This document shows positions 14,267-23,406 of a stretch of DNA of 34,895 nt, in pieces. The notes under the pieces were generated by a model that was not told where the DNA came from, did not search any database, and was given only the letters and a program-made list of their open reading frames with translations. Source of the DNA: Geobacteraceae bacterium (GTDB lineage Bacteria; Desulfobacterota; Desulfuromonadia; Geobacterales; Geobacteraceae); contig CAJPFF010000232.1 in NCBI GenBank assembly GCA_905339345.1, positions 1 to 34,895 of the forward strand, read 5' to 3'. Each line of letters opens with the position of its first letter. The stretch's first letter is position 1. The translations under genes were made by a program, and so were the position numbers.

Positions 14267-14824
14267 CTACGATTTTCTGAATCGCTCGATGGTATCGAGG
14301 ACCTCCTGCTCACGACGGATCGCCTCGTTGCAGAAGTTCCAGATGTGGTAGCTTTCGAGCGCCAGTATGGTAAGGCCTGCCACGAAGACCGCCCAGTAAT
14401 TCTCGTTAAGGGCCTTGGCGAAATGGTAAAAGCCGTAGAAGGCAGTCAGGTATCCCACATGGGCGAAACCACTGTATTCCTCTTTCCCCCCCATCATGCG
14501 CGAAAGGATGAGGATGATGGCCGAGAAGGTATACAGGACGAGTGCCCCACTGATCATGATGGACGAGGGAGGTTTCCCGAGAGTCATGCGAACCGCCGGG
14601 GGGAGTGAGGGGAGGATGCTGAAATCCCCGAGGGCCACGATGCTGACCGCAATGAAAAGGGCCAGGGCCCAAAGCCCCCGGTTGGACTTGCTCCTCAGTT
14701 GCTTGATTCGCAGGATGGTTTCCTGGCGCACTGTGTCCCGGTCCGGTGGGGTGCCGGCCGCGTCGGGTTGGGGAGGGTTTCCCTGGGTCTGCTTCATGGG
14801 GGGTGTATCACGGGTGTCGGTCAT
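14267..14824 (-). CDS. Four-helix membrane protein of unknown function
   Basis: A 185-residue protein. A ~45-residue hydrophilic, proline-rich N-terminus leads into four predicted membrane segments: near GLWALALFIAVSIVAL, near ISGALVLYTFSAIILIL, near YLTAFYGFYHFA, and near YWAVFVAGLTILALESYHI. A charged tail follows (RREQEVLDTIERF). I do not recognise a family. It starts 11 bases after the stop of the heme-HAMP sensor on the same strand, so the two are almost certainly co-transcribed and could form one membrane complex. Histidines in helices 3 and 4 could bind heme b, but nothing proves this. No good ribosome site is visible before the ATG, consistent with coupling. No terminator is visible after it. 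Confidence 0.75.
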   Translation of the reverse strand: MTDTRDTPPMKQTQGNPPQPDAAGTPPDRDTVRQETILRIKQLRSKSNRGLWALALFIAVSIVALGDFSILPSLPPAVRMTLGKPPSSIMISGALVLYTFSAIILILSRMMGGKEEYSGFAHVGYLTAFYGFYHFAKALNENYWAVFVAGLTILALESYHIWNFCNEAIRREQEVLDTIERFRKS

Positions 14825-14835
14825 GAACGACGGTG

Positions 14836-15684
14836 TCAGGAGCGGCTGTCGGCGCCGTCGCCTTCGGCTGCCTTCTGCTGTTTCACTTCAGCCTGCGTAG
14901 CCTTCAGCCTGGCTGACATATCTTCGAACGAGCGGGCCAGTTCTCCGATCTCATCCCGATAGGCAGGCGCCTTCCGGTTCAGTTCCCCCCTGTTGATGGC
15001 GGTAACGTAGTTGGCCAGTTCTTTGATTGGGAGAAGGACATTGCGAAGAAGGAGCGCTGAAACACCTCCAACGGTCAGGATGAGGACCATGAGACAGAAG
15101 ACGATCATTCTGCCGCGCAGGGTGCCGAGGGTCTTCTGGAGCGGTGCCTCGGAGAGACCGATGTCGAGGGTGCCGAGGAGTTTCTGGGTGGGGCTGTGGA
15201 CGTGGCAGGCGGCGTTGAAGCAGTCTGGCTCGTTGTAGATGGGGACCGTGATAGCGATGACGTTGTGCCCCTTCTCGTTGATGAAGCGCCGGGCCTGTTC
15301 CATCCTTCCCATGCTGGTGAGCGGCACCGGACCGGCATGGCAGGCGATGCAGCCGGCGGCGTTTTTGTCAACGAGCTTATTCACATCCTCGGCGTGGGCC
15401 GAGAACATGATTACCCCTTTTTTGTTGAAGATGCGGGTGTGCTCAACCCCCTTCTGCTGACCGATGTTGTCGATGATATTGCGCAGCGTTTCGCGGTCGT
15501 CCTTCAGCATGGCGAAACGGGCCGATTTGACGATGGTTCCGGCCAGGTTGGTTTCGTGCTCTATGGCGTCATTGAGCATGTCGGTCTTGATGACCGAGTA
15601 GAGCAGGATGCAGCAGACCACGACGAAGCCGGTCACGGCGATGGCCGGCGGCACGGTTGCCTTTGCGGCGAAGCTTTTCAGCAT
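14836..15684 (-). CDS. Heme-binding periplasmic sensor with HAMP domain but no output domain
   Basis: A 282-residue protein: TM1 (~12-32), a periplasmic domain with CIACH at 112-116 and a second CFNAACH (CX4CH) at 155-161, TM2 (~192-213), a HAMP domain (~214-266), and a short charged tail that ends without kinase, cyclase or receptor module. The sensor resembles that of the kinase at 21.7-23.4 kb: the distance from the CxxCH His to the first Cys of CX4CH is 39 residues in both. A covalent heme c at the first motif is expected; the second may bind another heme or a metal. It must signal by protein contact, perhaps with the co-transcribed four-helix protein or the kinase. AGGGAG lies 6 bases before the ATG. 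It lies downstream of omcQ. Confidence 0.85.
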   Translation of the reverse strand: MLKSFAAKATVPPAIAVTGFVVVCCILLYSVIKTDMLNDAIEHETNLAGTIVKSARFAMLKDDRETLRNIIDNIGQQKGVEHTRIFNKKGVIMFSAHAEDVNKLVDKNAAGCIACHAGPVPLTSMGRMEQARRFINEKGHNVIAITVPIYNEPDCFNAACHVHSPTQKLLGTLDIGLSEAPLQKTLGTLRGRMIVFCLMVLILTVGGVSALLLRNVLLPIKELANYVTAINRGELNRKAPAYRDEIGELARSFEDMSARLKATQAEVKQQKAAEGDGADSRS

Positions 15685-15803: not shown

Positions 15804-16793
15804 CTACATGTCGTGGCACTTGACGCAGTTTTCGCGCACGGTAAAGGCCTTTTTGCCGTCGTGGCAGGCGCCGCACGATTTGCCCTTCTCCATTTCGAGC
15901 ATCGTTACGACCTTGGCGCTGCGGCCCGCCTTGAAGATCTTGGTGTGGCAGGCGTTGCAGCTGTACATGCTCAGGTGGACTCCGTGGTCAAATCTGACCG
16001 GTCCGGCTCCCTTTACCTTGAAGTCAACATTCTTGACTGGGTGGCACTTGGCACACTGCTTCACGTCGAAGAGCCCCTTTCCGTTGTGGCAGGCGCCGCA
16101 CGACTTTCCCTTCTCCATGGCGGCCATGCCGACCGGCTTGTTGCGGCCCGGTGCGTAGAGTTTGTTGTGGCATTCGCCGCACTTCCTTTTCGCGGCATGG
16201 AGCTTGTGACTGAAGATGATCTTGCCAGTTTCCTTTGAAGTGAGGCCCACTTCCTTCACTAAATGGCAGCGTGAGCACTCATCCACGCTGAAGGCGGACT
16301 TGCCGTTATGACAGGCCCCGCAGGATCTCCCCTTTTCCATTTCGGCCATGGTGACGGGTTTGTTCTTGCCGGCCTTGAAGAGCTTGGGATGGCAGGAGCT
16401 GCAGTCGGAATACATGGCTAGGTGTTTCTTGTGGCTGAACGGCGTGGGGCCAGCGGACTTCACCTGGTAGGTGATTTCCTTTACCGCGTGGCAACGGGCA
16501 CAATCCTTGAGGGGGAAGACTCCCTCCTTGCCGGTATGGCAGGCGCCGCACGATTTTCCCTTCTCCATGTCGGCCATGGTGTAGGTCACCTTTTTCTTCA
16601 TGTCGAAGATGGCGGGGTGGCAGGCCTTGCAGTTGTTGTCGATCCCTTTCTTGCCGATGTGGACCTTGTGGCTGAAGACGATCTTGCCGGCGTCCTTCGT
16701 GTTGAAGACCACGTCCTTGATGCTGATGCCGAAGGCAAGACCGGCAATGGCGAGTGTGCAGGCCACGAGGGGAAGGGTGAAGCGGAATCTCAT
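15804..16793 (-). CDS. omcQ: Dodecaheme c-type cytochrome OmcQ
   Basis: A 329-residue exported protein with an N-terminal hydrophobic signal segment (residues ~4-22, no obvious lipobox) and twelve CxxCH motifs. The hemes form four repeated three-heme modules of about 75-80 residues: a FSHK.H/FDHG.H segment with one CxxCH, then MEKGKSCGACH(T/N/D)GK, then a C.(R/K/A)CH; the modules are clearly duplicated. This matches the 12-heme cytochrome next to cbcAB in Geobacter (OmcQ). It should be periplasmic or outer-membrane associated and store or relay electrons between inner-membrane oxidoreductases and outer-surface cytochromes; its exact partner is not shown. It has its own sigma-70 promoter, separated from cbcB by a strong terminator. 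AGAGGAGG precedes the ATG. Confidence 0.93.
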   Translation of the reverse strand: MRFRFTLPLVACTLAIAGLAFGISIKDVVFNTKDAGKIVFSHKVHIGKKGIDNNCKACHPAIFDMKKKVTYTMADMEKGKSCGACHTGKEGVFPLKDCARCHAVKEITYQVKSAGPTPFSHKKHLAMYSDCSSCHPKLFKAGKNKPVTMAEMEKGRSCGACHNGKSAFSVDECSRCHLVKEVGLTSKETGKIIFSHKLHAAKRKCGECHNKLYAPGRNKPVGMAAMEKGKSCGACHNGKGLFDVKQCAKCHPVKNVDFKVKGAGPVRFDHGVHLSMYSCNACHTKIFKAGRSAKVVTMLEMEKGKSCGACHDGKKAFTVRENCVKCHDM

Positions 16794-16832
16794 GTTAGCC
16801 TCCTCTGAAGGATTGAATGCTGATGCGCCAAA

Positions 16833-16860
16833 CTGGCTGGATTATAGGGAAGTCAGCCAG
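16833..16860. repeat. Inverted repeat around the omcQ -10 box (candidate operator)
   Basis: CTGGCTG (16833-16839) and CAGCCAG (16854-16860) are perfect inverted arms separated by 14 bases. The -10 box (16841-16846) lies between them, so a protein bound here would block or remodel the promoter. The protein is not known. Confidence 0.5.
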
Positions 16861-16869
16861 ATTAGTCAA
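16841..16869 (-). promoter_or_regulatory. Sigma-70 promoter of omcQ
   Basis: On the minus strand TTGACT (16864-16869), a 17-base spacer and a perfect TATAAT (16841-16846), about 48 bases before the omcQ start. This is among the best housekeeping promoters in the window. A second small inverted repeat, TAGCCG/CGGCTA at 16890-16910, lies upstream of the -35. Confidence 0.85.
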
Positions 16870-16920
16870 TTTTAAATACTGGTTTTTCATAGCCGTCGTG
16901 TTTCCGGCTAGTTGAGAGTG

Positions 16921-16963
16921 CATGAAAAAGGCGAAACGGGTTGTCCGTTTCGCCTTTTTCATG
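16921..16963 (-). terminator. Long bidirectional terminator after cbcB
   Basis: A perfect 19-bp inverted repeat, CATGAAAAAGGCGAAACGG (16921-16939) with its complement at 16945-16963, and a 5-base loop. The GGCGAAACGG core is flanked by an A run on one side and a T run on the other, so it can stop transcription on either strand. It separates cbcB from the omcQ promoter. Confidence 0.92.
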
Positions 16964-16978
16964 GTCAGACTCCTCAAT

Positions 16979-17653
16979 TTAGTGGTGCTTGACCTCTTCC
17001 CAGCCGTCCCACATGGGTTTGAAGTGGGCGAGCATTGTGTGCCCCATGGTTGCCAGGTAGATATGGACGAAGAGGAAGGCGCAGAAGCAGCAGGCGATCA
17101 GGAAGTGGGCACTCACCATGATCTTGAGGCCTCCCAGCAGCATGATCATTTCCCTGAGGGGCGCCACGTTGAGGATCAGGATGCCGGTGAGGATGACCAG
17201 TGGCATCAGCACGAGCATGAGTCCCATGTAGGCCACCTTCTGCATCGGGTTGAACTTGTCGTCGGGAGTTGCATGGTGCGGGCTCGGTCCCCCTTTGAAG
17301 AAGTGGTAGAAGTAGAAGAGCACCTGCCGGAAGATCCCCATCTTGATATCATAGGTGTTGGGGACGTAGAGCTTGAAGAGGTTCCCCTTCACGATCAGGT
17401 AGTAACCGAGCCAGATGGCGTAGAAGATTGCGACGGTGATTCCGGCGGTGTTGTGGAGCCTGATGGCTGCCTTGTAGGTCCCGAAAATGTTCACATACTC
17501 GGGGAACCTGATCTGGATGCCGGTGACGCAGAGGGTGACGATCCCGAGGGCGTTGATCCAGTGCCAGATCCTGACCGGCATGGGGGTAAGATAGATATAC
17601 TCTGCGTGTTCGGCGTGGCTCTCATGCACGGTATTTTCAGTGTGGGTGCTCAT
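16979..17653 (-). CDS. cbcB: Cytochrome b subunit CbcB of quinol oxidoreductase
   Basis: A 224-residue membrane protein of the hydrogenase/thiosulfate-reductase cytochrome b type. Four or five helices are seen; likely heme b ligands are His in RIWHWINA (~31), RLHNTAG (~67), VSAHFLI (~183) and VHIYLATMGH (~198-205), enough for two hemes. It starts 2 bases after the cbcA stop and has AAAGGAG upstream, so the two are coupled. In G. sulfurreducens CbcBA is known as the menaquinol oxidation route needed when acceptor potential is very low, near the thermodynamic limit of respiration. CbcB would take electrons from menaquinol and pass them to the CbcA hemes. Assignment rests on architecture and gene order. 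Confidence 0.9.
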   Translation of the reverse strand: MSTHTENTVHESHAEHAEYIYLTPMPVRIWHWINALGIVTLCVTGIQIRFPEYVNIFGTYKAAIRLHNTAGITVAIFYAIWLGYYLIVKGNLFKLYVPNTYDIKMGIFRQVLFYFYHFFKGGPSPHHATPDDKFNPMQKVAYMGLMLVLMPLVILTGILILNVAPLREMIMLLGGLKIMVSAHFLIACCFCAFLFVHIYLATMGHTMLAHFKPMWDGWEEVKHH

Positions 17654-17655
17654 GA

Positions 17656-18708
17656 TCAGTGCTCCTTTCTGTTCTTTCTGGTGAGGAATCTGAGGGTCCC
17701 GTGCACTCCGGCGAAGCCCATGCCGCCGAGGATGATGAGGCCGCCGACTATAGAGAGTGCGGTGCTGCGGGTGGAGCCCATCATGTAGAAGTCGGGTGTT
17801 CCGTAGAGGACGTCGAGGACGGCTCCTTTTTCGACGGCCATGCGTGTGAAGGTTCCGCTCTTGTCCGGGAAAGCAACGAAGCTTGTCTGCATGGCCCTGG
17901 GGCCGGAGGCGTGGCAGAAGGTGCAGTCCCAGCGATTGTCAAGGATCTGGTAGCTGTGGGTCACCTTCTCGGGGGTCATCATCCCCCAGAGTCTCATGTC
18001 GTCGTTTTTTGCATTGCGGTTGAAGGACCGCAGTTCCGCGAGGGAGATGAAGTTGTCGCCATTGGTGTCGATGAGCGATTTCACATCCTTGTCGCCCGGT
18101 ATGAGCTGGGTAAGCTCATCGTAGCTTGCCACCTTGAAGTCGCTATGGGCTTTTGTCCCCATCCGCTTCTCGACGTACATGGTTATGACGTAATTCTGCG
18201 ACCCGGTGTGACAGGTAATGCAGGGCAGTGCGTCGATGTGGAGGTCGGCCTGCGGGAGCCATTTTGCGTGGGTCGTTACCATCTTGGCGGTTTCGTGGCA
18301 CTTGGCGCACATGGCGTTCATGTCGCGGGCCGATGTCAGCATCGGCGGTTTCACCGCGTGGGGGTTGTGGCAATCGGCGCACGCGGCGTTGTTGGCGTGG
18401 AGACTTGCGGCGTACTCCTGATGGACCGGACTGTGGCATTCCTTGCAGGTGGCCCGCGAAGGTCTGATGCCGTCATTGGGGTGATTCACCGTCACCGATT
18501 CGTGGCAGGACGTGCACCCGATGACCGAGTGGCTGGTTTTTTTGTACTGGGCCGGGTCGATGAAGAGGTGAGACCCGCTTTTGCCGCTGATGTTTTTGTC
18601 GCCGTGGCAGTCGATGCATGCGTCCTCGGACTTCTCGGCGGCAAGGGCCGCCATCGGGAAGATCGAGAGAATCGACAGCACGAGAGCTGCTGATCGTAGG
18701 GTTGCCAT
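17656..18708 (-). CDS. cbcA: Heptaheme c-type cytochrome CbcA, membrane anchored
   Basis: A 350-residue protein with an N-terminal signal segment ending near ALAA, seven CxxCH sites (Cys31, 65, 88, 110, 134, 163 and 262) and a C-terminal membrane helix (~318-336) with a basic tail, so the hemes face the periplasm. Between hemes 6 and 7 is an EF-hand-like loop, [12 protein letters not shown] (214-225), with Ca ligands at positions 1, 3, 5, 9 and 12. The start at 18708 is chosen because GGAGG lies 7 bases upstream and the signal peptide begins there; the frame stays open 15 codons further. It is the electron-accepting partner of CbcB. It lies in the operon led by the mini-proteins and pseudo-receiver. 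Confidence 0.9.
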
Positions 18709-18776: not shown

Positions 18777-19010
18777 CTAGTGGTGGGAGGATTCCTTGGC
18801 CATGGGCTGTTCCTTCTTGAGCCCTTTTGCGAAGCCAAGCATCATGAGCAGAGCCGGAACGAGTTGGGCGACGACGATGAGGGCGCAGAAACCAAGGAAT
18901 ATCCAGACGAAGATTCCGCTGTTATCTTCCCGAGCTCCCGATGCGGCCAGCGCCGGTGCCGCTGTGCCGAGCCATACTGCGACTGTTTGTGCCAATGCCG
19001 AGCGTTTCAT
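18777..19010 (-). CDS. Exported single-helix mini-protein, copy 2
   Basis: A 77-residue protein with a signal-like N-terminus (to about ALAASGA), one membrane helix (about [25 protein letters not shown]) and a short charged tail ending in two histidines. It is a paralogue of the 79-residue protein at 19.5-19.7 kb: both share AASGA, a short acidic linker, a helix with FL.F.AL and QLVP.LL, and a following GL. Possibly it is an assembly factor or small subunit of the CbcAB complex, since it lies 68 bases upstream of cbcA. AAGGAGG precedes the ATG. Confidence 0.82.
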
Positions 19011-19058: not shown

Positions 19059-19451
19059 TTACCGTGCCGGTCGGTTGCTGAGGAGGTTTTCGAAGGCGCA
19101 CCGCACAACCTGGCGAATCTCTTCCTTGTCCTCCGGTTTGACCGGTTTCAGCGCGTGGTAGAATATTCCTTCCTTGCGGAGCTTGCGGATGACCGGGAGC
19201 GAGGGGTCGTCGGAGACGAGGATAATCGTCAGGTTCCGGTCGCATTTCTTGAGGAGCGGAATAAGTTCGCCGGCCTTGAACTCGTCGAACTCGCTCCCGA
19301 TCAGGACCACTTGCGCGGTCTTCTTGAGTATCCCGTAGAGGGCGTTGGCCGCGGAGTTGGTCACGATAACGTTGTAGCCTGCCTCGATGAAGAGATCCGC
19401 CAGTTCCTTGCGAGCGTCGGTATCGTTATCTGCTATGAGAAGTCCTAACAT
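19059..19451 (-). CDS. Receiver-domain protein lacking the phosphoacceptor aspartate
   Basis: A 130-residue single receiver domain. The acidic pocket (ADNDTD) is present near residue 8, the Ser of beta4 (ILVSDD) and the Lys-Pro of beta5 (HALKPVKP) are present, but the beta3 Asp is replaced: the strand reads QVVLIGSEFDEF, with Gly or Ser where Asp is expected. It should not be phosphorylated in the usual way. The start at 19451 is chosen for AGAGGA just upstream; the frame is open 14 codons further. It sits between the two mini-proteins in the cbcAB operon. It may bind a kinase, BccR or the pseudo-sensor as a decoy or adaptor. Confidence 0.85.
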   Translation of the reverse strand: MLGLLIADNDTDARKELADLFIEAGYNVIVTNSAANALYGILKKTAQVVLIGSEFDEFKAGELIPLLKKCDRNLTIILVSDDPSLPVIRKLRKEGIFYHALKPVKPEDKEEIRQVVRCAFENLLSNRPAR

Positions 19452-19504: not shown

Positions 19505-19744
19505 CTACCTCTTGCCCCCGGAGTCACCCATGGCTGATGCGTCGGATGGCTTGGCGAAAAGCCCTCTGATCATGGAGCCGAACAGGAGCAGGCCGGGGAC
19601 CAGCTGGAATGCTATAACCAGGGCGCCGAAGGCGAGGAAGAGGGTTGCCAGGAACCCGTTACTGTCGGATTCGGCGCCGCTTGCCGCCAATGCTGTGCCT
19701 GATGCTGCAAGAAGTGCAAAGAGTGATCTGATGGTGGTTTTCAT
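19505..19744 (-). CDS. Exported single-helix mini-protein, copy 1
   Basis: A 79-residue protein with a signal-like N-terminus (ALAASGA), one membrane helix (about LFLAFGALVIAFQLVPGLLLFG) and a Gly/Lys-rich tail. It is the paralogue of the 77-residue protein nearer cbcA. It is the first gene of the cbcAB operon, 55 bases downstream of the sigma-54 element. AGGAGG lies 5 bases before the ATG. No family is recognised and function is unknown. Confidence 0.82.
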   Translation of the reverse strand: MKTTIRSLFALLAASGTALAASGAESDSNGFLATLFLAFGALVIAFQLVPGLLLFGSMIRGLFAKPSDASAMGDSGGKR

Positions 19745-19798: not shown

Positions 19799-19814
19799 TG
19801 CATCCGTTATGCCA
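19799..19814 (-). promoter_or_regulatory. Sigma-54 promoter of the cbcAB operon
   Basis: On the minus strand TGGCATAACGGATGCA has GG and GC exactly 10 bases apart and matches TGGCAC-N5-TTGCA with two changes. It is 55 bases upstream of the first gene of the operon. A sigma-54 activator gene (bccR) lies divergently next door, and known Geobacter work ties cbcBA expression to BccR. Confidence 0.8.
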
Positions 19815-19898: not shown

Positions 19899-20051
19899 GT
19901 GTATAAATCAGCTATACGGGTCCGGGACGCCGCGGAGCCGCCTGAATTGCTGGTTGTTAGTAACACATTGAAATTGCGTCGAATTGTGGCTGCGGAGAGG
20001 GTGTATAAAATAATATACGGTTCTGTGCAGGCTGTATGACATTGAAATTGC
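19899..20051. repeat. Paired repeats, candidate activator (BccR) binding sites
   Basis: Two palindromes with identical flanks, GTGTATAAA..TATACGG: GTATA-N7-TATAC at 19901-19917 and GTATA-N6-TATAC at 20003-20018. Two exact direct copies of ACATTGAAATTGC lie at 19965-19977 and 20039-20051, 74 bases apart (about seven helical turns). All lie 85-240 bases upstream of the sigma-54 element, the usual enhancer distance. Confidence 0.6.
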
Positions 20052-20134: not shown

Positions 20135-20220
20135 AGAAACTACTAATTGTCTGTTGTTTTGTCGCCGGTCTGTAATGTCTGAGAAACCCCAGCGTTCGCG
20201 AGCGAAAAGGGAAGGTGGCG

Positions 20221-21633
20221 ATGGAAAACATCGATGTACTTGTAGTTGACGATGAAGCGGTCATTCGAGAAGGGCTGCGGCGCATCCTGGAGAAGGAGGG
20301 GTTCCATGTTGAGACCTCCGCCAGCGGGCAGATTGCCCTCGAACGGATGCAAGAGGAGAATTTCAGCCTGGTGATCACCGACCTGAAGATGCCCGGCATG
20401 AGCGGCATGGAAGTCCTCAAAGCGATCAAGGTCCTTCAGCCCGAAGTCCCGGTCATCATCATCACAGGATTCTCCACTGTCGACACCGCCGTCGAGGCCA
20501 TGAAGAACGGAGCATTTGACTACATCGCCAAACCCTTTACCCCGGAGCAGATTACGGAGAAAGTGAGGAAAGCTCTCGATCAGCGCGCCGTGCTGATCGA
20601 GAATATCTTTCTGAAGAAGGAGCTGGGAGAGCACCACGGCTTCGACCTCTTCGTGGGGGAGAGCAAGGAGATGCAGAAGGTCTATCGCCGCATCATCCAG
20701 GTGGCCCCCACCGACAGCACCGTCCTCATCACCGGCGAAAGCGGCACCGGAAAGGAACTGGTGGCCCGCGCCATACACAACCACAGCAACCGCCGTGAGA
20801 ATCCCTTTGTTGCCGTCGACTGTACCTCCCTGGCCGAGAACCTCCTGGAGAGCGAGCTTTTCGGCCACGTGAAGGGGTCCTTCACCGGTGCCATCCAGAC
20901 CAAGACCGGCCTTTTCAAGGTTGCCGACGGCGGTACCCTTTTCCTGGACGAGATATCGAACATAAGCCTCACCACTCAGGCGAAGTTGCTGCGGGTCCTC
21001 CAGGAGCGTGAGATCACCCCCATCGGTGGCACCCAGCCGGTCCCCATCGATATCCGTCTCGTCGCCGCAACCAACAAGAACCTCCGGACCCTGGTGAGCC
21101 AGGGGACCTTCCGGGAGGACCTCTTCTTCCGGCTTAACATCATCCCCATCGATCTTCCTCCCCTGCGCCAGCGCAAGGGCGACCTTCCCATCCTCATCGC
21201 CTATTTCCTTAAAAAGTTTTCCGAGGAAATGGGGCGGGAGATCCGGGGCCTTGCACCCGACGCCATGGCGCTTCTGGAGGACTACAATTTTTCGGGCAAC
21301 GTGCGGGAGCTGGAGAACATCATCGAGCGGGCCGTGGTGCTTGCGGAGGAGGATGTGATCCAGAAGGATGATCTGGAACTCCGTCTTTCCGGAGGAGAGG
21401 GAGGTGGAGCCGCCAGCTACATTCCCCAGACCGTGGAGGAGCTCAAGGAGACCAAGCGGCAGATCCGGGAGCGGGCCGTGGAGCCCATCGAGAAGGCCTT
21501 CGTCCTCCAGGCCCTCAAGCGTAATAACTGGAACATCACCCGCGCCGCCGAGGAAACGGGGATGCTTCGCCCCAACTTCCAGGCACTGCTGAAGAAGCTG
21601 CGGATTTCGGTGCGGAACCAGATGAGCAGTTGA
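20221..21633 (+). CDS. bccR: Sigma-54-dependent response regulator BccR
   Basis: A 470-residue NtrC-type activator. Receiver domain (1-120) with Asp54 in LVITDLKMPG and Lys in YIAKPF; AAA+ domain (~143-385) with Walker A GESGTGKE (172-179), the sigma-54 contact loop GSFTGA (219-224, Ser in place of the usual Ala), Walker B GGTLFLDE and a FREDLFFRL arginine-finger region; Fis-type HTH (~436-460, WNITRAAEETGMLRPNFQALL). ATG at 20221 is preferred to the in-frame GTG two codons earlier because AAGGGAAGG then has proper spacing. It is divergent from the cbcAB operon and convergent with a heme sensor kinase, its probable partner. Recognised as the regulator required for cbcBA expression in G. sulfurreducens. 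Confidence 0.93.
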   Translation: MENIDVLVVDDEAVIREGLRRILEKEGFHVETSASGQIALERMQEENFSLVITDLKMPGMSGMEVLKAIKVLQPEVPVIIITGFSTVDTAVEAMKNGAFDYIAKPFTPEQITEKVRKALDQRAVLIENIFLKKELGEHHGFDLFVGESKEMQKVYRRIIQVAPTDSTVLITGESGTGKELVARAIHNHSNRRENPFVAVDCTSLAENLLESELFGHVKGSFTGAIQTKTGLFKVADGGTLFLDEISNISLTTQAKLLRVLQEREITPIGGTQPVPIDIRLVAATNKNLRTLVSQGTFREDLFFRLNIIPIDLPPLRQRKGDLPILIAYFLKKFSEEMGREIRGLAPDAMALLEDYNFSGNVRELENIIERAVVLAEEDVIQKDDLELRLSGGEGGGAASYIPQTVEELKETKRQIRERAVEPIEKAFVLQALKRNNWNITRAAEETGMLRPNFQALLKKLRISVRNQMSS

Positions 21634-21726: not shown

Positions 21727-23352
21727 TCAGGCAGGCTCCTGCGGCGCCGGACTGGCCGCCGTTGCCGATGCCGCCTCCAGCGCGCCTTCATGGTCCAGCG
21801 GCAGCCAACAGGTGAAGGTGGTACCCACCCCGACGGTGCTCTGCACGTCGATGCTTCCCCCATGACCCTCGATGATCCCGTAGGACACTGACAGTCCCAG
21901 ACCGGTCCCCTTGTTCTCCTTGGTTGAGAAGAAGGGGTCGAATATCTTGGAAAGGTTATCCTCGGGGATGCCGCAGCCGTTGTCGGTGATGGCCGCGTAG
22001 GCTTCCTTCCGTTCCTGGTCGAAACCGGTTCTGATTCGTATTTCCCCCGGTCCTCCGATGGCGTGGCAGGCGTTCAGGAGGAGGTTTATGAATACCTGTT
22101 CGATCTGGTTCGGGTCCATATGCATCTCGGGGATGTCGGGGTTGTACTCCTTGATGACGTTGATGTCGTGGAAGCACGCCTGATTGCAAATGAGGGTCAG
22201 GGTTGCGTCCATGATGGCATTGAGGGATGAGGGTTTCTTCTGGGGCATCGACTCCCGGGAGAAGTCAAGGAGCCCCTTCACGATCCGGGCGCAGCGCTGG
22301 GTCTCCTTGACAATCAGGTCCAGGTCTCCCTTCAGGGACGGATCGAGCTTTGAATCGCTGGAGAGGAGCGATGCGAAGACGAGGATGCCGGTCAGGGGGT
22401 TGTTGATCTCGTGGGCTATCCCCGCCACGAGCTCCCCCAGGGAGGCGAGCTTCTCCGAATGGACCAGCTGAGACTGGATCTTCTTGATCTCCTGGGTCCG
22501 CTCTTCCACCTTATCCTCAAGGTTCTTTCCCCAGTCCTCCAGTTCTACCCGGGCCTTCTTCAGGTTGATCGTCATCCCGTTGAAGGCCTCGGCCAAGTCG
22601 CCAAGCTCGTCGCGGTTCTTGACGGACACCCGGGCGTCCAGGTCGCCGCCGCCGATGAGGTGGGCGTGCCGGACCAGCGCGCGGACCGGCCGGTTGACCA
22701 GTCGCTGGGTCAGGAAGGTGAGGCAGAGGGCGATGAGGCCGATCTGCATGACCGTGAGGACGATGATCTCGTTGCGGTAGGCGTAGACCTTCTGGTGCAT
22801 CTGGTCGAGGGAGACGATGACGTCCAGGACGCCGAGGACCTTGGCCTCCTTGGGGTGGAAATGGCAGGGGGCCGTGAAGCAGCGCTCTTCATTGTAGATA
22901 GCCTTGGCGATGCCGAGGACTTCTCTCCCCTCCTTGCTCGTGAAGAGTCGGCTGCGGTTCATGGTAGTGGCGTGGACAAGGGGGGATGGCCCCGAATGGC
23001 ACATGCTGCATGCCTCGGCCTTCTTGTCGAGGAAGAGTCCGATTTCCTTGTTGTCGGTGGAGTGGGTGACGAGGCCGAACTTGTTGATCATCCTGATTCG
23101 CTCGATGGTCTCCCGCTGGGATCCTACCTCGTCGATGATCTGGTAGGCCCGCTTCAGGTTGTTCTCGAGCATGTGATAGTGGGTCGTGCGGATGATGGTT
23201 TCGCTCAGCTTGTCTGCATCGATGACCGCCTCCTCGAAGAGGAGTTTTTCAAGCTGCTCCACGTTGATGTAGGCGAAGAGCCCCATGGTGGTGAGGAGGA
23301 TGAGGCTGATGGCGAGGGAGAGTTTGGCGATGAGCGACAGGCGCAAGGGCAT
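21727..23352 (-). CDS. Sensor histidine kinase with periplasmic heme domain
   Basis: A 541-residue kinase. TM1 (~8-29), a periplasmic sensor with CSMCH at 115-119 and CFTAPCH (CX4CH) at 158-164, TM2 (~195-217), HAMP (~217-270), a coiled-coil, HisKA with GIAHEINNPLTG (phospho-His in AHE), and HATPase with a N box (NLLLNACHA), DNGCGIP, FDPFFSTKENKGTGLGLS. A short Ala/Pro tail ends it. The start ATG at 23350-23352 gives a clean TM1; a TTG 15 codons upstream is the alternative and has no ribosome site. It is convergent with bccR and is the obvious kinase for it. It should read redox state or a ligand at the heme. Its sensor matches that of the output-less sensor downstream of omcQ. Confidence 0.92.
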   Translation of the reverse strand: MPLRLSLIAKLSLAISLILLTTMGLFAYINVEQLEKLLFEEAVIDADKLSETIIRTTHYHMLENNLKRAYQIIDEVGSQRETIERIRMINKFGLVTHSTDNKEIGLFLDKKAEACSMCHSGPSPLVHATTMNRSRLFTSKEGREVLGIAKAIYNEERCFTAPCHFHPKEAKVLGVLDVIVSLDQMHQKVYAYRNEIIVLTVMQIGLIALCLTFLTQRLVNRPVRALVRHAHLIGGGDLDARVSVKNRDELGDLAEAFNGMTINLKKARVELEDWGKNLEDKVEERTQEIKKIQSQLVHSEKLASLGELVAGIAHEINNPLTGILVFASLLSSDSKLDPSLKGDLDLIVKETQRCARIVKGLLDFSRESMPQKKPSSLNAIMDATLTLICNQACFHDINVIKEYNPDIPEMHMDPNQIEQVFINLLLNACHAIGGPGEIRIRTGFDQERKEAYAAITDNGCGIPEDNLSKIFDPFFSTKENKGTGLGLSVSYGIIEGHGGSIDVQSTVGVGTTFTCWLPLDHEGALEAASATAASPAPQEPA

Positions 23353-23406
23353 GACCTCGGGTGTTTTGATACGGTAAAGGGTGATGAAGCGTAACAAATT
23401 TAATAC

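Follow-up and report, generated by a model that had tools for sequence, protein, structure and literature searches.

The window analyzed here, a stretch of 34,895 nucleotides from a Geobacteraceae bacterium (contig CAJPFF010000232.1 of assembly GCA_905339345.1), contains the gene of a receiver-like protein, PsR, which, exactly as the original prediction had placed it, lies between the genes of two small membrane proteins (mini1 and mini2; the three genes are referred to below as the triad) and just upstream of cbcA and cbcB (Table 1). CbcBA is a low-potential inner-membrane cytochrome (PMC12307469, PMC10553843). The adjoining sigma-54 response regulator is called BccR, a name that comes from the earlier sequence-only note and does not occur in the literature found. 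Further along the operon, a sensor-HAMP protein without a kinase shares about 30% identity with the sensor half of the histidine kinase, so that the operon holds, together with PsR, both a kinase-less sensor and a phosphate-less receiver. On the minus strand, the gap of about 185 bp between cbcB and the following cytochrome gene (16795-16980) has a strong site of the sigma-70 type (16869-16841, 11/12), and mirror-image open reading frames within it indicate an inverted repeat; the cytochrome gene downstream of this gap may have its own promoter.

Table 1. Features of the triad locus and its surroundings (coordinates refer to the window).
Feature	Position	Strand	Basis or remark
185-aa membrane protein	14267..14824	-	Profile; Yip1-like match, weak and sub-threshold
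Sensor-HAMP protein without kinase, one CxxCH	14836..15684	-	Profiles, locus map
Twelve-heme c7-type cytochrome, cbcC/omcQ-like by position	15804..16793	-	Profiles, locus map
cbcB, cytochrome b561 family	16979..17653	-	Profile match
cbcA, seven-heme cytochrome c	17656..18708	-	ATG at 18708 with Shine-Dalgarno; open frame extends to 18753
mini2, 77 aa, mini1 paralog, fused to PsR in two lineages	18777..19010	-	ORF, locus maps, tree
PsR, 130 aa	19059..19451	-	ORF, PF00072 match, fold model, Spo0F alignment; stop codon included
Codons E94-K102 (EGIFYHALK), alpha4-beta5 turn and strand beta5	19146..19172	-	Most constrained part of the PsR family; entropy by element, matched BccR comparison
Gly52 codon (phospho-Asp position)	19296..19298	-	Aligned without gaps to Asp54 of Spo0F
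mini1, 79 aa, single membrane segment after a signal-peptide-like start, short basic tail	19505..19744	-	ORF, locus maps, consensus
Sigma-54 -24/-12 promoter, TGGCATAACGGATGCA	19799..19814	-	About 55 nt before mini1; p ~0.05 alone, conserved across loci
Proximal palindrome, CGTATAGCTGATTTATACA, presumed BccR enhancer	19900..19918	-	85 bp from the -24 element
Distal palindrome, variant with N6, CGTATATTATTTTATACA	20002..20019	-	About 102 bp from the proximal palindrome
BccR, sigma-54 response regulator, Asp/Thr/Lys intact	20215..21633	+	Profile match, receiver comparison
Histidine kinase: CxxCH-bearing sensor region, HAMP, HisKA, HATPase	21727..23397	-	ORF and profiles; start not refined

The assignment of the 130-residue product to the receivers holds: PsR matches the Pfam profile PF00072 with 33.6 bits (cut-off 30.2), the lowest score among the 65 above-cut-off receiver matches of the window's own, incomplete genome, and its AlphaFold2 model adopts the (beta-alpha)5 fold with a mean pLDDT of 84. 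Receivers, and above all Spo0F, are its nearest solved relatives in both sequence and fold. In the profile alignment with Spo0F, G52 pairs with Asp54, S80 with Thr82, K102 with Lys104 and H99 with His101, whereas D8 and N9 pair with the two acidic residues, of which the first (DD1) is thus kept and the second (DD2) replaced. Because the alignment runs through the active site without a gap, the phospho-acceptor has been lost rather than shifted, and a phospho-Asp at a displaced position can be rejected. The loss claimed at the outset, Gly or Ser in place of the phospho-Asp, is therefore real, with Gly as the substituting residue and Ser as the one that comes next; of the features said to be retained, Ser80 and Lys102 are indeed present, but the acidic pocket is preserved only by half. 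PsR is a recognizable receiver without the residues for phosphotransfer, in that Gly52 and Asn9 leave the catalytic set of acidic pair, Asp acceptor, Thr/Ser and Lys incomplete. The comparison supports the conclusion that PsR would be unable to use canonical Asp phosphorylation.

Homologs of PsR were found in 35 of 48 genomes at the family level, in 158 of 277 genomes and 55 of 82 genera at the class level and in 39 of 395 genomes of a phylum sample, with one to four copies per genome; the source genomes are related, so that these numbers, like the locus counts given below, are non-independent. The 122 distinct sequences have Gly at the acceptor position in 83 cases, Ser in 19, Asp in 17 and Ala in 3. 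The loss is consequently conserved in the orthologs (G, S or A in 105 of the 122) but not universal, and a family-wide absence of Asp was rejected, since Asp was regained in several lineages (L075-L082 with L163/L164; L115/L116/L122; L151-L154), each time without the acidic pair. In these 17 sequences, the pair reads NK, EH or YQ; Asp52 and two acidic residues never occur together in the 122 homologs, and a complete active site is thus present in none. The lineages concerned are a possible case in which a residue has returned minus its chemistry. Across the family, DD2 is mostly Lys, Glu or Arg, K102 has changed to Glu in one lineage, and the T+1 position, a small residue in ordinary receivers, is Asp or Asn in 91 of the 122 sequences. 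I96, F97, E111 and A119 are invariant in all 122, and G95, Y98, R89 and R92 are almost so. Judged by this pattern of conservation, PsR is a maintained protein that has lost its switch.

In ordinary receivers, helix alpha1 and the beta5-alpha5 loop are the kinase-docking regions. We mapped the conservation of PsR per secondary-structure element and compared it, at the 28 loci that hold both psR and bccR, with that of the BccR receiver, whose Asp, Thr and Lys are intact. At these matched loci, variability in PsR was 1.8 times that of BccR in alpha1, 3.3 times in the beta3-alpha3 loop, 3.1 times in the beta4-alpha4 loop, 3.7 times in alpha4 and 3.2 times in the beta5-alpha5 loop, whereas strand beta5 was far less variable (0.17 bits, compared with 0.91 in the BccR receiver). 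PsR hence lacks a conserved kinase-docking surface (alpha1 and the beta5-alpha5 loop). With the regions linked to phosphorylation and the likely docking regions relaxed and one edge of the fold frozen, the distribution of constraint favors a contact partner other than a kinase.

Candidates for such a partner are encoded on either side of PsR. A mini gene lies upstream of psR at 72 of 74 loci, and a second one follows it or is fused to it at 69 of 72, such that co-location or fusion with the mini genes is a constant feature of PsR. Even in the farthest homologs, in which the gene order is mini-mini-PsR, the order shifts while the set stays the same. The mini proteins combine a signal-peptide-like start with a single membrane segment, marked at its end by the motif Q-L-V-P, and with a short tail; the membrane segment of mini2 contains a conserved Cys and a conserved Gln; neither mini1 nor mini2 has a match above cut-off in Pfam, NCBIfam or PADLOC. 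Fusions of PsR to mini2 occur in two separate parts of the tree and thus arose at least twice, and the well-supported branches require at least three changes of fusion state, including a reversal in Desulfuromusa. Some of the fused genes contain a perfect Shine-Dalgarno sequence (AAGGAGGT) ahead of an internal ATG, which suggests that free mini2 is still made, and four others (L048, L056, L059, L069) have lost the internal start and are followed by a separate mini2 gene. The model of a fused protein comprises the receiver and then two long helices. Neighboring genes fuse readily, so that the fusions by themselves are suggestive only. Nonetheless, the tight linkage and the repeated fusion make it likely that PsR and the mini proteins form a membrane-side complex, and the near-obligate partners of PsR appear to be these two small membrane proteins, not the kinase. 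Lone mini genes with no psR nearby were also seen (L186, position 14151; L075, 3638; L114, 5439), one of which, in L186, has a TGTATA-N7-TATACA palindrome upstream.

The triad shares its regulatory signals across loci. A high-scoring sigma-54 site precedes the first mini gene at 49 of 72 loci, and at 19 further triad loci every such site scores at least 13/15. When the upstream regions were searched for shared dyads with no prior assumption, the most frequent one was TGTAT-N9-ATACA (33 of 93 regions, compared with five or fewer in each of 20 shuffled sets), and its longer form, TGTATA-N7-TATACA, matches at 10/12 positions or better in 72 of 90 triad upstream regions, as opposed to 3.6% of shuffles. 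In most cases, the distance from the -24 element to the end of the nearer palindrome is 82-85 or 93-99 bp, and a second copy is found about 102 bp away. This spacing corresponds to about ten helical turns, and a pair so arranged before a sigma-54 promoter has a conserved enhancer layout. Of 37 triads whose fetched stretch contains no sigma-54 regulator, 31 have the palindrome; it is missing from three of the five triads that adjoin a different sigma-54 regulator and absent from the CbcAB-type triads of five loci (L103, L108, L110, L111, L121). Genome-wide, palindromes with at most one mismatch are rare: the 3.8 Mb of G081 contain only nine, of which one precedes a triad and two, at a distance of about 740 kb from it, separate bccR from its cytochrome operon, and the five of G089 likewise include sites in the bccR region and at the triad far from it. 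Nearly all genomes with PsR also have BccR (155 of 158), a nested distribution; in one of the three exceptions BccR is split over contigs, and the other two genomes are 81% and 73% complete. Conversely, 37 genomes carry BccR without PsR. The idea that PsR belongs to the BccR unit is borne out by this co-occurrence and by the -24/-12 promoter and shared upstream element found together at the triad. Most simply, BccR would activate the triad, whether in cis or in trans; its binding to the palindromes is suggested by their co-distribution and by the location of the sites.

Downstream of the triad, we find two types of quinol-cytochrome cluster, either CbcA/CbcB, as in the window, or a five-heme cytochrome with a 4Fe-4S protein and a polytopic membrane protein, the latter without a Pfam match and NrfD-like by size and position alone. 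One or the other is present at 46 of the 62 loci with enough sequence, and where a genome carries the two types together, each is often accompanied by its own triad (L110, L111, L121). Some triads are isolated beside unrelated genes, and no triad accompanies the CbcAB operon that adjoins bccR in G081 and G089. Given these solitary triads and triad-less operons, the association with quinol oxidases, though strong, is not absolute, and an exclusive link to cbcAB was rejected because triads also precede FeS/NrfD-like clusters or stand alone. In one family (L167-L170, in genomes G081, G083, G087 and G074), as many as four triads are scattered over a genome, none of them beside cytochrome genes, which implies that the module has a role for which neighboring quinol oxidases are not needed. 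A second type of CbcAB operon (L105, L109, L110, L111, L121) has its own triad, mostly without the BccR palindrome, and lies next to a long kinase and to a sigma-54 response regulator that is not BccR but shares ~35-40% identity with it; the sensor-HAMP protein of the window is absent from it.

We give roughly even chances to the reading that PsR is a phosphorylation-independent cytoplasmic partner of mini1 and mini2 that acts on the membrane side as an output of BccR, not as an input to it. The kinase-BccR pair would switch on the triad alongside low-potential quinol:cytochrome complexes of the CbcAB or FeS/NrfD-like type, with BccR presumably activating the module by binding to the TGTATA-N7-TATACA palindromes, and the signal would run from BccR to the triad. 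PsR, mini1 and mini2 would then form a three-protein membrane-side module that is constitutively competent, independent of phosphorylation, and PsR may work through protein contacts of strand beta5 and the conserved alpha3/alpha4/alpha5 side. The genomic neighborhood points to an accessory factor for the assembly, recruitment or activity of inner-membrane respiration, and the module probably serves the quinol-cytochrome complexes. It is tempting, if distinctly more tentative, to speculate that the receiver fold, once a phosphate switch, has become the cytoplasmic subunit of a membrane module with paired single-pass microproteins that assembles, organizes or gates inner-membrane quinol oxidases, or the extra inner membrane in which they reside, when the electron acceptor approaches the energetic limit.

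The original prediction had cast PsR as a phosphorylation-independent adaptor or feedback element on the kinase or BccR. In this role, PsR would bind the kinase, for instance at its HisKA domain, or the BccR receiver and thereby tune their signaling. PsR does share a regulatory unit with both proteins and almost never occurs without BccR, such models have been discussed for CmrT, another pseudo-receiver inside a two-component operon, and the pseudo-receivers of ShkA and CikA inhibit their own kinases. However, alpha1 and the beta5-alpha5 loop vary more than they do in the BccR receiver, the constant partners of PsR are the mini proteins rather than the kinase, triads are also found under another sigma-54 regulator and in three to four dispersed copies per genome, and BccR does without PsR in 37 genomes, all of which makes a feedback role unlikely. 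We are more doubtful still that PsR and mini2 sense the state of the quinone pool or thiols and relay it to the respiratory complex or BccR. The pseudo-receivers of CikA and KaiA bind quinones, RitR and HP1021 use redox dimers of Cys residues, and C70 and C118 of PsR are kept in 105 and 109 of the 122 sequences, respectively, beside the conserved Cys and Gln in the mini2 membrane segment; yet C118 is replaced by Tyr in one lineage, C70 is absent from others, and the two residues are expected on opposite faces of the modeled fold (alpha3 and alpha5). An intramolecular Cys70-Cys118 disulfide is likewise not favored by the order of the secondary-structure elements. By analogy, quinone or thiol sensing could also be a sub-mechanism of the output role. 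Finally, it is very improbable that PsR is a decaying receiver or still accepts a phosphoryl group at a displaced position, for instance Asp56. This Asp is frequent (101 of 122 sequences), and Ser80 and Lys102 are retained in the window, but Asp56 aligns four residues beyond the acceptor, at the usual Pro, the substitutions at DD2 and K102 weigh against a displaced site, and decay is excluded by the invariant positions, the class-wide retention and the presence of one to four copies per genome.

The mechanisms of bacterial pseudo-receivers have been termed a mystery (PMC12632262). PsR offers a clean case: it lacks an output domain, its active site has been lost throughout the class, and its membrane partners are defined and, in some lineages, already naturally fused to it. 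Most of the iron- and electrode-breathing Desulfuromonadia retain it along with the two tiny membrane proteins. The palindrome provides a testable BccR enhancer motif whose layout can be used to map the BccR regulon, and the module adds a short list of targets for low-potential respiration in relatives of Geobacter, in which the signal that builds the intracytoplasmic membrane is unknown (PMC10082016).

By gene order beside cbcA/cbcB (GSU0594/GSU0593), GSU0596 of Geobacter sulfurreducens is likely the PsR ortholog, and a complete Geobacter-like genome (G008) has mini1-PsR-mini2-CbcA-CbcB beside BccR, with a PsR that is 73% identical. In the literature found, GSU0596 and GSU0597 appear only in expression lists, as 'Response receiver' (PMC10599522) and as hypothetical protein (PMC11934962, PMC13407953), respectively, and a prior mention in the main CbcBA paper (10.1111/mmi.14801) is possible; the main text of the RpoN regulon paper contains no GSU059x entry.

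Pseudo-receivers occur widely and for the most part lack an explanation (PMC12632262, PMC4395418). The aspartate-less receivers described in these studies have the same PF00072 fold without a complete active site, but PsR differs from them in that it stands alone, is linked or fused to single-pass microproteins and bears the signature GIFYHALKP. The pseudo-receiver of FrzS from Myxococcus xanthus works by protein contact, binding SgmX through its alpha3-beta4-alpha4 surface, which is near the conserved side of PsR; FrzS, however, acts at the cell pole and with type IV pili, and the likeness considered here is that of the fold. CmrT of the Clostridioides difficile CmrRST system is, like PsR, a pseudo-receiver encoded in a two-component operon, and in one proposed model the kinase-regulator pair simply controls its expression, but it is a DNA-binding regulator of the OmpR family, whereas PsR has no output domain. 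The quinone-binding pseudo-receivers of CikA and KaiA provide a lead for a protein encoded beside quinol oxidases, although both are circadian clock proteins. Spo0F, the closest solved relative of PsR by sequence profile (1.3e-9) and among its top folds, shares with it the His at position K-3 but, unlike PsR, retains Asp54 and the acidic pair and becomes phosphorylated.
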